A stretch of 64,000 nt of DNA, taken from an uncultured Dehalococcoidia bacterium (GTDB lineage Bacteria; Chloroflexota; Dehalococcoidia; Lucifugimonadales; G958296245). The notes under the pieces are model-generated. The model was given only the letters and a program-made list of their open reading frames with translations. It was not told where the DNA came from and searched no databases. Positions 30,432-36,463 of this stretch are shown here, piece after piece. The translations under genes and the position numbers were made by a program. Position 1 is the first letter of the stretch; each line of letters opens with the position of its first letter. The DNA lies in the NCBI GenBank assembly GCA_958296245.1, contig OY282458.1:806001-870000 (forward strand), written 5' to 3'.

Positions 30432-30572
30432 GAGGCTATGGGCCTGAATCCTTCACGCGCCGTTATGGCGTCCGCGCGAGTGACAGGCCCGACGGTGTGA
30501 CTGTATCTATACAATTGGACGTGAGGCCGCCATGAGGTAAGGGTATCCTGCCCTATCTCCGCCAAGAAGGGA

Positions 30573-30608
30573 GGGCTGCAAGGAAGCCATGAGCGGTTTC
30601 TGCAGCCC
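30573..30608 (+). promoter_or_regulatory. Structured leader of queF
   Basis: The outer stem GGGCTGC (30573-30579) pairs perfectly with GCAGCCC (30602-30608). The inner stem GAAGCC (30583-30588) pairs with GGTTTC (30595-30600) with one G-U. An almost identical arrangement with compensatory changes precedes gyrB (31756-31792). It is followed by CGCTAACTGAT (CGTTAATGAT at gyrB). It does not match a preQ1 riboswitch that I recognise, although queF is a common target of one. Confidence 0.5.
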
Positions 30609-30675
30609 GCTAACTGATATTATATGCGAGGCTGGGGAGTCGGCGCGCCGAGCCCGCACTGAGGGAGACGCTCCT

Positions 30676-31098
30676 GTGGCAACGATAGAGAGCCTGCTTC
30701 ACGAGTACGACGCGTTGAACAAGCGGTTCGAGGCGAGGGCGCAGACCGCGATAGATCCCACGTGCTTGCTCGTCTTCGACTACGAATACCCCGAACAGGA
30801 ATCCGAAGTCGTCATCGCCTCGGAGGAGTTTACCGCGGTGTGCCCGTGGAACGGCCTCCCCGACTTTGGCACGCTGACGGTCAGCTACGTCCCGGGCAGG
30901 TCGTGCATTGAGCTCAAATCGCTCAAGTACTACCTGCTGTCCTACTCAGGGGTGGGGATCGTCCAAGAGCACGCCGCGAACCGCGTCCTGAGAGATCTGG
31001 TCCGCGCCTGCCGGCCCCGGAGCATGACGGTGGTCTTGGACTACAAGCCCAGAGGCGGCCTTCACACCACCGTAACCGCCAGCTACAACCCCGGCTGA
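30676..31098 (+). CDS. queF: NADPH-dependent 7-cyano-7-deazaguanine (preQ0) reductase
   Basis: 140 aa from the GTG at 30676, which has GAGGGAG 8 nt upstream and gives the N-terminus MATIESLLHEYDALN. An ATG at 30589 is open in frame but lies in the loop of the leader hairpin and would add a tail atypical of the family. Family motifs: EEFTAVCPWNGLPDFGTL with the catalytic Cys (C56) and Asp (D63), and SYVPGRSCIELKSLKYYLLS matching the ESKSLK signature, with Glu at E79. This is the short unimodular type (Bacillus QueF is 165 aa). It reduces preQ0 to preQ1 in queuosine synthesis. No other que gene is nearby. Confidence 0.92.
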   Translation: MATIESLLHEYDALNKRFEARAQTAIDPTCLLVFDYEYPEQESEVVIASEEFTAVCPWNGLPDFGTLTVSYVPGRSCIELKSLKYYLLSYSGVGIVQEHAANRVLRDLVRACRPRSMTVVLDYKPRGGLHTTVTASYNPG

Positions 31099-31210
31099 CG
31101 CGCCGCAAAGCCCAACATGGGCAGTGCGCCGCCATTGGGACCACCGGATGTTGTGGTATACTCCGTGCACTTGGAGCAGGCCACGCGCCGGGCCGTCTAG
31201 GAGTGGGCAC

Positions 31211-31271
31211 GCCCCAATAGCAGGCCTCAGATTCCTCACTCCGCCGGCTCTGCGTTCGGAATGACGGGTTG
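31211..31271 (+). repeat. Dispersed repeat family 3 (R2), copy 1
   Basis: CCCAATAGCAGGCCTCAG, then ATTCCTCACTCCGCCGGC and TGCGTTCGGAATGACGGG, recur in inverted orientation at 34069-34122 with few differences. It lies in the 721-bp gap 31099-31819 between queF and gyrB, which holds repeats and the gyrB promoter region but no gene that I can support. Confidence 0.6.
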
Positions 31272-31340
31272 GGTGGCGCGGCGGGGGATTTGGGCAGGCT
31301 TTCACGGTTCGACTCATAGAGGCTGAACAGCTACGCGGAA

Positions 31341-31484
31341 GCCTGTCCCAGATAGTAGGCGGTGTCGTTTCATTAGGAACGGCGCTACACTCATCCGCCT
31401 CCGGTGCAGGCCGGAATCCTAGGGGTGGTGCGGGCGAGACGCCCGCGCTCCCAGGAGGCGCCTACTAACTTTGGGACAGACCCG
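31341..31484 (+). repeat. MITE-like element 2, full copy
   Basis: 144 bp with imperfect terminal inverted repeats: left GCCTGTCCCAGATAGTAGGC, right (reverse complement) GTCTGTCCCAAAGTTAGTAG. The interior holds the hairpin GCGGGCG-AGA-CGCCCGC. Partial inverted copies lie at 1063-1135 (interior) and 40203-40245 (left end). No coding potential. Confidence 0.65.
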
Positions 31485-31687
31485 CTGCACGGCCAAGGTT
31501 TTGATTTATGTCTAAGAAAGTCGTAAGATATGGGGGTGCAATCGTATTGAATTTCTGCTCCGCTATGCCGTCCACTTAGGTGGAGGCGCACGTAGTCCGC
31601 GCCGTGTGGGCGCTTCCGCTTGGGAGGTCCGCTAGGCTTTCGGGGCTACGGGTTGTGCAGAGGGGCGAAGCCCCTCAATGCTGGGAG

Positions 31688-31725
31688 TCTGAGGGCCTGC
31701 CGAAGGGGTGTCCCTCAGATATAAT
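31688..31725 (+). promoter_or_regulatory. Hairpin element and -10 box upstream of gyrB
   Basis: TCTGAGGG (31688-31695) pairs with CCCTCAGA (31712-31719), and a consensus TATAAT (31720-31725) follows at once. No good -35 is seen at the right spacing. Related elements lie at 35173-35197 and 53011-53036, so the -10 box seems to travel with a repeated hairpin. Confidence 0.5.
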
Positions 31726-31755
31726 CTCTTCCACACTCCCAGGCTAGGTAAGGAA

Positions 31756-31792
31756 GGGTTGCAAGGAATCCGGAAGCGTCTTCCCGCAGCCC
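31756..31792 (+). promoter_or_regulatory. Structured leader of gyrB
   Basis: The outer stem GGGTTGC (31756-31762) pairs with GCAGCCC (31786-31792, one G-U), and the inner hairpin is GGAAG-CGT-CTTCC (31772-31784, counting the extra unpaired bases). It matches the queF leader in sequence (TTGCAAGGAA, GCAGCCCG) and shape. The gyrB ribosome binding site follows 16 nt later. Confidence 0.5.
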
Positions 31793-31819
31793 GTTAATGA
31801 TGACTGACAGGAGATCTGT

Positions 31820-33769
31820 ATGGTAACGACCAATGTCAATATGGATGCTGAGGCATACACTGCCGGCGACATCCAGGTACTGGAGGGGATGGAGGCTGTC
31901 CGCAAGCGGCCTGGGATGTACATCGGCGGGACCGGCCAGAGCGGGCTCCATCACCTGGTCTTCGAGATCGTCGATAACGCGGTCGACGAGTTCATGGCGG
32001 GCCGCGCCTCCCGGGCCGACGTGCATATCCGGCAAGACGGCACGGTCTGCGTCCGCGACGATGGTCACGGCATCCCGATCGAGACTCACAAGGCCACGGG
32101 CAGGTCGGCTGTGGAGACGGTGATGACGACACTCCACGCAGGCGGCAAGTTCGGCGGCAAAGCGTACTCCGTCTCCGGGGGGCTGCATGGCGTGGGCGCC
32201 TCGGTGGTCAACGCGCTCTCCAAGTGGATGCGCGTCGAGGTCTACCGCGAGGGGATGGTCTACCACCAGGAGTTCTCGCGCGGCAAGCCCATTACCGACC
32301 TCCTGTCGGCGCCCCTCGATGATACGGAGGCGAACAGGCGCGGGACCTCGATCATGTTCCAGCCCGACCCGGAGATATTCCCGTCGATCGACCTGGACTT
32401 CAATACGCTGTCCCAGCGATTCAAGGAGATGGCTTTCCTCAACAAGCGGATGGAGATCCACTTCAAGAGCGACTGGCACGTCTCGCTATGGCCGAACAAC
32501 GAGGTCACGTACTACTTCGACGGCGGCATCGCCAGCTTCGTCAGCCACCTGAACGAGAACAAGTCCCCGCTGCACAAGGAGCCGATTTACGTCGAGAAGC
32601 AGGTCAACGGCACCAGAGTCGAGGCTGCCCTCCAGTACACCGCCAATTTCACCGAGTTCGTCTACGCCTTCGCCAACTGCATCAATAACGTCGAAGGCGG
32701 CACACATCTCACCGGCTTCAGGAGCGCGCTTACCCGGGTTCTGAACGACTACGGCCGCAAGCAGAAGCTACTGAAGGACAACGAGCCCAACCTAGCCGGC
32801 GAGGACACGAGGGAAGGGCTGACCGCGGTGGTCAGCGTCAAGTTGGGAGACCCGCAGTTCGAGGGTCAGACCAAGGAGAAGCTGGGCAACCCCGAGGTAC
32901 GCAACCAGGTCGAGGGGGTGGTGGCCGAAGCGCTGTTCACCTACTTGGAGGAGCACCCGCAGGACGGACGGCGGATCATCGACAAGTGCGTCACGTCTCA
33001 GCGCGCCAGGGACGCGGCCCGAAAGGCGCGGGACCTGATCATCCGCAAGAACGCTATGGACGGCGGATCCCTGCCCGGCAAGCTGGCCGACTGTTCGGAC
33101 AAGAACCCGGAGAACTGCGAGATCTATCTCGTGGAGGGCGAGTCCGCCGGCGGCACGGCCAAGATGGGCAGAGACCGGGCCAATCAGGCGGTGTTGCCGC
33201 TGAGAGGCAAAATACTCAACGTCGAGAAGGCGCGGGCCGATAAGATGCTCGCGCACGAGGAGATACGAGCGCTCACGATCGCCCTCGGCGCCGGGTTGGG
33301 CGAAGACTTCAACCTCGCCAAGCTGCGCTACCACCGGATCATCATCATGACGGACGCCGACGTTGACGGCTCGCACATCCGCACGCTGCTCCTGACGTTC
33401 TTCTTCAGGAACATGCACCCGCTGATCTCCCGCGGACATCTCTACATTGCCCAACCCCCCCTGTACAAGATCACCGCGGGCAAGAAGGAGCAGTGGGTGT
33501 ACACCGAGAGCGAACGGGAGAGGGCCGTCGCAAACCTCAACGGCTCCAGCCGATTCAACATCCAGCGCTACAAGGGCCTCGGGGAGATGACGGCGGACCA
33601 GCTCTGGGACACGACGATGAACCCCGAAGATCGCACGCTGCTACAGGTATCGCAGGGGGACGCGTCTGACGCCGATCACATCTTCTCCGTCCTGATGGGC
33701 GACGTGGTCGAGCCGAGGCGGAACTTCATCCAGACCCACGCCCTAGAGGTCAAGAACCTGGACGTGTAG
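31820..33769 (+). CDS. gyrB: DNA gyrase subunit B
   Basis: 649 aa, full length. The GHKL ATPase domain has EIVDNAVDEFMAG, DDGHGIP and GGLHGVGASVVNALS; the transducer domain follows; the TOPRIM domain has EGESAGGTAKMGRDR and IMTDADVDGSHIRTLLL; the C-terminus has QRYKGLGEM. Most GyrB proteins have EGDSAGGSAK, so D to E and S to T changes are present next to the metal site, but the acidic residues needed are kept. AGGAG sits 7 nt before the ATG. Topoisomerase IV ParE is the alternative; length and domain order favour GyrB. gyrA is not adjacent. Confidence 0.93.
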   Translation: MVTTNVNMDAEAYTAGDIQVLEGMEAVRKRPGMYIGGTGQSGLHHLVFEIVDNAVDEFMAGRASRADVHIRQDGTVCVRDDGHGIPIETHKATGRSAVETVMTTLHAGGKFGGKAYSVSGGLHGVGASVVNALSKWMRVEVYREGMVYHQEFSRGKPITDLLSAPLDDTEANRRGTSIMFQPDPEIFPSIDLDFNTLSQRFKEMAFLNKRMEIHFKSDWHVSLWPNNEVTYYFDGGIASFVSHLNENKSPLHKEPIYVEKQVNGTRVEAALQYTANFTEFVYAFANCINNVEGGTHLTGFRSALTRVLNDYGRKQKLLKDNEPNLAGEDTREGLTAVVSVKLGDPQFEGQTKEKLGNPEVRNQVEGVVAEALFTYLEEHPQDGRRIIDKCVTSQRARDAARKARDLIIRKNAMDGGSLPGKLADCSDKNPENCEIYLVEGESAGGTAKMGRDRANQAVLPLRGKILNVEKARADKMLAHEEIRALTIALGAGLGEDFNLAKLRYHRIIIMTDADVDGSHIRTLLLTFFFRNMHPLISRGHLYIAQPPLYKITAGKKEQWVYTESERERAVANLNGSSRFNIQRYKGLGEMTADQLWDTTMNPEDRTLLQVSQGDASDADHIFSVLMGDVVEPRRNFIQTHALEVKNLDV

Positions 33770-35197: not shown

Positions 35198-35326
35198 AAA
35201 ATCCCTTCTCCTTCCTGCCCAGGAAGGTCTTGAAGGAGATACGGAAGGGACCTCCCGCAGCCTGCCCGGCTTGCGCGAGGCTGGCCCGCCGCCGCTCGCC
35301 CGGGCTCAGGTCGAAAGCCCGGCTGA

Positions 35327-35404: not shown

Positions 35405-36463
35405 ATGGACAAAGTAAAGCTTGCCATCGTTGGTTGCGGCACCATATCCGTAATGAACGGGCCGGGCTACGTGAAGCACGAGAGGTGCGAGGTAGCGGCC
35501 CTCTGCGACCCCTTGAGAGAGAGAGCGGAGACCCGCGCTAAGGAATGGGGAATCACCCCGAAGATATACACCAAGTACGAGGACGTGCTCAACGACCCCG
35601 ACGTCGACGCGGTTGAACTGCTAACGCCGACGCCGCTCCACGCTCAGCAGATAGTCGACGGGCTCGAAGCGGGCAAGCACGTTTCCTGTCAAAAGCCCAT
35701 CTGCAACAACCTAGCTGAGCTCGATGCGATAGCCGGCGCCGCCGCCCGCGCGGAGACGCTGTTTCGCGTCACTGAGAACTTGCTGTTCTTCCCCCCGCTG
35801 ATGAAGGCCAAAGAGCTGCTGGACTCCGGCGCCGTGGGGGACCCGTCCCTTCTACGTATCCGTGTCATCAGAGGGCGTGGGACCCTTGGGAGAGCCATAA
35901 CCATAGAGCCCGACTCCAAGACTTGGCGCCGCGACCCGAAGTCCAACACAGGAGGTTACCTGTTCGACGGGGCCTGGCACATGTACGCCGTGGCCATGGC
36001 GTGGCTCGGCGTCCCCGAGAAGGTGTTCGGAATGCTGACCGCCACGGAAGACTTCTGGGAGGAACTGCCCAGCACGGTGTTGTGGAAGTTCAAGGACAGG
36101 GAATGCCAGGCCGTATTTCAGTTCCTACTAGCGCAGAACATGCCGATGAGGAACGACTACGTAGCCTCCGATGAGTTCTACGAGATACAGGGCTCGGATG
36201 GGCTGCTGTGGGTGACGGCCCGCAACGGATTCCTCGACATGCCGCCGCTCGTGCTGCACAGGGGCGCGGAAACCAAGGGGATCGAGGCGCCGGCGGACTG
36301 GAGGGAAGGGTTCGATGGCGCTGCGAGTCATTTCGTCGATTGCATCCTGTCCGGCGAGCAGCCGGTGATGGACGTCCGCTTTGCCAGGAGGGTACTGGAG
36401 ACGACCCTAGCCGTATACCGGGCCGCAGAATCCGGGAGGGCAATCGACCCGCGCCTATCCTGA
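35405..36463 (+). CDS. Gfo/Idh/MocA-family NAD(P)-dependent oxidoreductase
   Basis: 352 aa. The Rossmann domain starts at once: KLAIVGCGTISVMNGPGYV, then ALCDP, then YEDVLNDPDVDAVELLTPTPLHAQQIVDGLEAGKHV. The usual EKP motif reads QKP (CQKPICNNLAE) and keeps the catalytic Lys. The C-terminal alpha/beta domain contains GGYLFDGAWHMYAVAMAW with the expected Asp/His pair. Members oxidise or reduce sugars, inositols and related polyols; the substrate is open. GAGGGAAGG lies ~6 nt before the ATG. The gene is convergent with the NCS2 permease. Confidence 0.9.
   Translation: MDKVKLAIVGCGTISVMNGPGYVKHERCEVAALCDPLRERAETRAKEWGITPKIYTKYEDVLNDPDVDAVELLTPTPLHAQQIVDGLEAGKHVSCQKPICNNLAELDAIAGAAARAETLFRVTENLLFFPPLMKAKELLDSGAVGDPSLLRIRVIRGRGTLGRAITIEPDSKTWRRDPKSNTGGYLFDGAWHMYAVAMAWLGVPEKVFGMLTATEDFWEELPSTVLWKFKDRECQAVFQFLLAQNMPMRNDYVASDEFYEIQGSDGLLWVTARNGFLDMPPLVLHRGAETKGIEAPADWREGFDGAASHFVDCILSGEQPVMDVRFARRVLETTLAVYRAAESGRAIDPRLS

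Follow-up and report, generated by a model that had tools for sequence, protein, structure and literature searches.

The genes queF and gyrB of an uncultured Dehalococcoidia bacterium share a 5' leader sequence, and the locus raises the question of what this leader is. An earlier note on the 64,000-nucleotide stretch analysed here (contig OY282458.1, positions 806,001 to 870,000; hereafter the window) took it for a structured RNA composed of the outer stem GGGYTGC/GCAGCCC, a strand AAGGAA and an inner hairpin with compensatory base changes; the letters it cited are in the sequence. The shared leader is probably the right end of a relic, promoter-bearing, Correia-like MITE, which would serve unrelated genes as promoter and 5' untranslated region. 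According to this explanation a non-autonomous MITE of about 150-210 bp, with terminal inverted repeats of about 16 bp, would have inserted with 4-bp YTAR duplications, bringing along a TATAAT, then a GC-rich hairpin and then the terminal repeat. With its right end just 5' of a ribosome-binding site, the element would have become promoter and 5' untranslated region; such insertions would have been retained before dozens of unrelated genes, and the remaining copies would have decayed.

Copies in the window

A sequence-only model, R1, was built from 19 aligned copies without any assumed structure. It matches the window three times, and together with the terminal repeat and the left arm the following features are recognized:

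30549..30615, + strand, partial MITE right end before queF (R1 match, E 7e-16)
30597-30612, minus strand, terminal repeat in the queF leader (match of the terminal 16-mer)
31649..31695, + strand, left arm of the gyrB copy, GTGCAGAGGGGCGAAGCCCC...GGGAGTCTGAGG (87% identity to element consensus positions 19-63)
31720..31725, + strand, TATAAT of the gyrB copy, proposed as putative -10 box (letters; conservation and context)
31726..31799, + strand, MITE right end before gyrB with hairpin, leader and terminal repeat (R1 match, E 1e-17)
35199..35265, + strand, third, decayed copy (R1 match), 139 nt upstream of an oxidoreductase-like gene with ATG at 35405

The leaders of queF and gyrB, both among the 19 seeds of R1, share homologous sequence, each forms the 5' leader of an unrelated gene, and one sequence model fits both. 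The gene names given previously are right: QueF (TIGR03139, PF14489) starts with GTG at 30676 (gene call), and GyrB (TIGR01059) with ATG at 31820, downstream of the right end. The left arm of the gyrB copy recurs elsewhere in the genome (DNA search). TATAAT is absent at the usual place in the queF copy. The third copy corresponds to the weaker relative noticed before at 35219-35262; it is not a seed of R1 and matches with E 9e-5 in the window and E 0.004 in the genome-wide search. Within the window the bare 13-mer GGGYTGCAAGGAA, with up to two mismatches, has four matches versus 2.0 expected, which is non-significant; the shared motif is significant because it recurs genome-wide (57 copies at E<=0.005), not from its count in the window. 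Between queF and gyrB, at 31182-31492, lie two more interspersed repeats with many genome copies, one with GTTCGGAATGACG and the other ending GGAGGCGCCTACTAAC; the genome is rich in interspersed repeats of this kind.

A genome-wide repeat family

The genome searched comprises 2.69 Mb. DNA searches at E<=10, one with each leader, listed 48 and 36 matches, many of them short or to other portions of the repeat. R1 gave 83 matches at E<=0.1, of which 57 had E<=0.005; the other 26 (E 0.005-0.1) are omitted from the context counts given below. The exact leader 20-mer had no match in a contig collection that may leave out the genome itself.

The copies are small, noncoding and follow the layout TAGCAGGCTGCGGAAA...TATAAT...hairpin...GCAGCCTGCTA, over about 150-210 bp. 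Many carry TAGCAGGCTGCGGAAATGCGGGGTGTGCAGAGGGGC upstream, and the leader end TTTCCGCAGCCTGCTA is its inverse; the end pattern of the family is CAGG(G/C)TGCTGAAAAA. With up to two mismatches, the terminal 16-mer occurs at 28+33 = 61 sites in the genome, one of which is the queF leader itself, versus 1+0 for a backwards-read control. Both ends are visible in several copies, e.g. 2474770-2474944 and 1067721-1067877. The letters of the proposed outer stem are present before queF (GGGCTGC 30573-30579, GCAGCCC 30602-30608) as well as before gyrB (GGGTTGC 31756-31762, GCAGCCC 31786-31792), and the 3' strand of this stem is the right terminal inverted repeat of the MITE. The downstream CGYTAA(C)TGAT of the earlier note is in part this same repeat, namely its end (CTGCTA/CTGTTA), and for the rest flank.

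Fourteen end pairs, inspected by eye at the start of the longest frame, contained no recognizable transposase that would mark an autonomous partner, and none of the PF01609 transposase loci examined is flanked by MITE ends.

Left arms also occur in tandem clusters, at 286266-286492 with a spacing of about 67 bp (locus L095, 284300-288500), and several left-arm copies lie at 702457-703462 (locus L098, 700700-704700). In the short copy at 1337997-1338044 (L046:1440-1560) the ends CCTAACAGGCTG...CAGCCTGTTAGG flank the leader only; this copy is internally deleted, with the leader kept before an endonuclease IV-like gene.

Relatives and target duplications

Of 40 genomes belonging to the same order, 9 carry the element. 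A pattern for its core had at least 120 matches in named genomes, and all listed records are Chloroflexi/Dehalococcoidia MAGs; the pattern required CAGATA, and this sample has no bearing on the retention of TATA in relatives. Among 147 genomes of the order, R1 has matches at E<=1e-6 in the genome itself and in three more, whose loci show the right end of the relatives' type.

Other Dehalococcoidia contain the same MITE with intact ends, CTAGCAGGGTGCTGAAAAA...TTTTTCAGCACCCTGCTAG, and 4-bp target duplications. The duplications were assessed in 94 distinct copies from relatives, 62 with both ends recognized and 32 lacking a recognized end. Identical flanking 4-mers were found in 27 of the 62 two-ended copies (shuffled mean 12.4; none of 10,000 shuffles as high): 13 CTAG, 6 TTAG, 4 CTAA, 3 ATAG and 1 GTAG. 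Direct duplication of a non-palindromic target is the signature of insertion, and non-palindromic flanking 4-mers were direct in 14 cases versus inverted in 1. In the genome itself the duplication is kept in just 2 of 27 two-ended copies, and these copies therefore look old. The low number of retained duplications and the partner search with no match count against the MITE reading.

Position and orientation relative to genes

The earlier note had stated that copies scattered without relation to gene starts would be just another repeat. Genes were called by a codon-usage script on 103 pieces totaling 472 kb. A first count gave 47 of 57 copies whose right end faces a co-directional gene, and a second gave 48 of 57, the two counts differing at recF. 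The element, although a repeat, is thus associated with gene starts. At sites between tandem genes, 32 copies share the direction of the genes and 4 oppose it (p=1e-6).

In relatives, where both neighbors are known for 79 of 100 copies (1 copy overlapped a gene), the tandem sites are 36 with versus 12 against (p=4e-4), and left arms lacking the leader in the genome itself are 22 with versus 8 against. Because relatives and leaderless left arms show it as well, the orientation bias is family-wide and not specific to the leader; its difference between the genome and the relatives is non-significant (p=0.16). The repeat family at 31182-31492 offered too few copies (5 and 14) for an orientation control.

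The gene-facing right ends lie for the most part no more than 130 nt from the start codon, often immediately before AAGGAG. Such a position would also fit a neutral repeat whose insertion favors YTAR near ribosome-binding sites (CTAA directly followed by GGAG) and has no effect on expression; the intact copies of relatives are already biased, and for recent copies selection is unnecessary. A short, near-symmetric target, however, does not set orientation relative to transcription. Moreover, sites between divergent genes are more numerous here than those between convergent genes (16:5), unlike in relatives (14:17; p=0.04), and TATAAT is retained mainly in gene-facing copies, as described below. 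We consider neutral insertion an unlikely account of the family.

The 20 downstream proteins that were run have functions with nothing in common. Genes downstream of copies include gyrB, queF, lexA, tsf, rplK, purC, purH and argC, a hisIE-like and a dapA-like gene, and genes for an E1 dehydrogenase, a cobalamin adenosyltransferase, TrkH, RtcB and an ABC transporter.

Putative promoter

An exact TATAAT just upstream of the hairpin is present in 23 of 47 gene-facing copies versus 1 of 10 others (p=0.03); the single exception is recF, whose gene context is probably miscalled. In 43 aligned copies the TATAAT has a mean information of 1.24 bits versus 0.78 for all columns, and the columns adjoining it are kept about equally well. 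At the customary distance, inspection by eye found no -35 box; the promoter may therefore be weak or unusual.

The element probably supplies a promoter to the downstream genes; whereas homology and insertion of the copies are shown, transcription from TATAAT and retention of the copies by selection are what we infer. Counting against the promoter reading are the weak TATAAT contrast, the missing -35 box, the queF copy with its usual TATAAT place empty, and an orientation bias that extends beyond the leader. If the reading is true, tens of genes in one genome, housekeeping genes included, have a transposon end as promoter region.

Structure of the leader

The best-conserved stretches of the element include the segment TGCAAGGAAGCCGGAAGCG of the leader. 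This segment could conceivably have been gained by the MITE in this lineage alone and now be a common post-transcriptional address on dozens of mRNAs, as the target of an RNA-binding protein or sRNA or as a translation enhancer. We regard this as quite improbable; if true, a regulon including gyrB, lexA, tsf and purC would have been built by transposition.

The compensatory inner hairpin claimed for the two leaders does not hold, since the two hairpins occupy different alignment columns instead of being base-substituted versions of a single helix. When the leaders are aligned, GAAGCC of queF stands opposite GAATCC of gyrB, and the gyrB stem GGAAG opposite ATGAG of queF. When a transposon end is mistaken for an RNA stem, two leaders can mimic compensatory change.

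The larger claim of a conserved RNA structure finds no support in the covariation alignment, which comprises 37 matches from 32 loci, 34 of these matches being distinct: the 34 distinct copies show no covariation, an outcome that the earlier note had named as refuting its reading. Over the ten base pairs of the outer and inner stems, pairing reaches 82.3% versus 82.4 in shuffled alignments, with 1 double change versus 1.7 and a covariation score of 0.094 versus 0.096. All six slid registers gave at least as many double-change pairs, but fewer paired cells (35.7-58.5%). RNAalifold found a weak structure in the 19 seeds, with a covariation term of -0.06. Neither of the two leaders folds with unusual stability (z -0.42 for gyrB, -1.69 for queF); z ranges from +0.13 to -3.32 over ten folded leaders, three of which, gyrB included, are above -0.5.

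GGGCTGCAAGGAAGCC contains the outer stem's 5' strand, and the equivalent segment of the relatives reads like GGGGGACAGGGGGATGGTCG; because this segment differs there, relatives have no outer stem. Nor is the gyrB copy conserved: among the 29 gyrB upstream regions fetched for the 37 relatives with a match (two had less than 210 nt), one has the element, in reversed orientation, and the association with the same gene expected of a structured RNA was not found in these 29.

The statement that the leader matches no riboswitch class is borne out, as it reaches no Rfam family. At the gathering score Rfam yielded two tRNAs only in the window, and in seven loci searched at E<=5 no match came close to a cut-off. 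The best match, Clostridiales-2 with 28.7 bits versus a cut-off of 58.6, falls in a MITE of a relative (L114:1506-1625, sub-threshold E 0.004; L109, E 0.36), and the resemblance may be one of hairpins alone.

A structured cis-regulatory RNA of many genes, riboswitch or protein-binding leader, that was merely spread by the transposon would agree with copies lying in sense direction before start codons, with the conservation of TGCAAGGAAGCCGGAAGCG and with the good folding of some single leaders (z down to -3.3), but is very unlikely given the absent covariation, the relatives' missing 5' strand, target genes that share no common pathway, the single reversed gyrB element and the lack of an Rfam family. 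As part of the MITE explanation, GGGYTGC/GCAGCCC is probably a local hairpin formed by lineage-specific sequence and a transposon end, its pairing not visibly selected.

Comparison with known systems

The analysis removes a candidate riboswitch and replaces it by a MITE family, with a putative promoter, in Dehalococcoidia, a host group known mostly from metagenomes. With preQ1 riboswitches the sole likeness is that one copy lies before queF; they differ in that the window has no Rfam match to them and 56 of the 57 copies lie before or beside other genes. Literature searches found no description of this Dehalococcoidia MITE family.

In organization only, the family is like the Correia elements (CREE/NEMIS) of Neisseria, which likewise are small MITEs with terminal inverted repeats and target duplication. 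Terminal repeats and internal sequence probably differ, and so do the host, Dehalococcoidia here, and the target, which is TA for Correia elements and YTAR for the present family. Furthermore, the copies in this genome are mostly decayed and their promoter is putative, unlike in Correia elements. MITEAba12, BrickBuilt, QMITE1 and SonMITE_1, whose hosts belong to other phyla and which are likened here by description and not by sequence, are named in a part of PMC10969869 as MITEs with sigma-70-like promoter sequences. For Correia elements, passages of the published accounts describe sigma-70-like promoters and many copies just upstream of genes (PMC10969869; PMC2229807), and a promoter carried by a MITE just upstream of a gene has its published precedent in these elements (PMC10969869).
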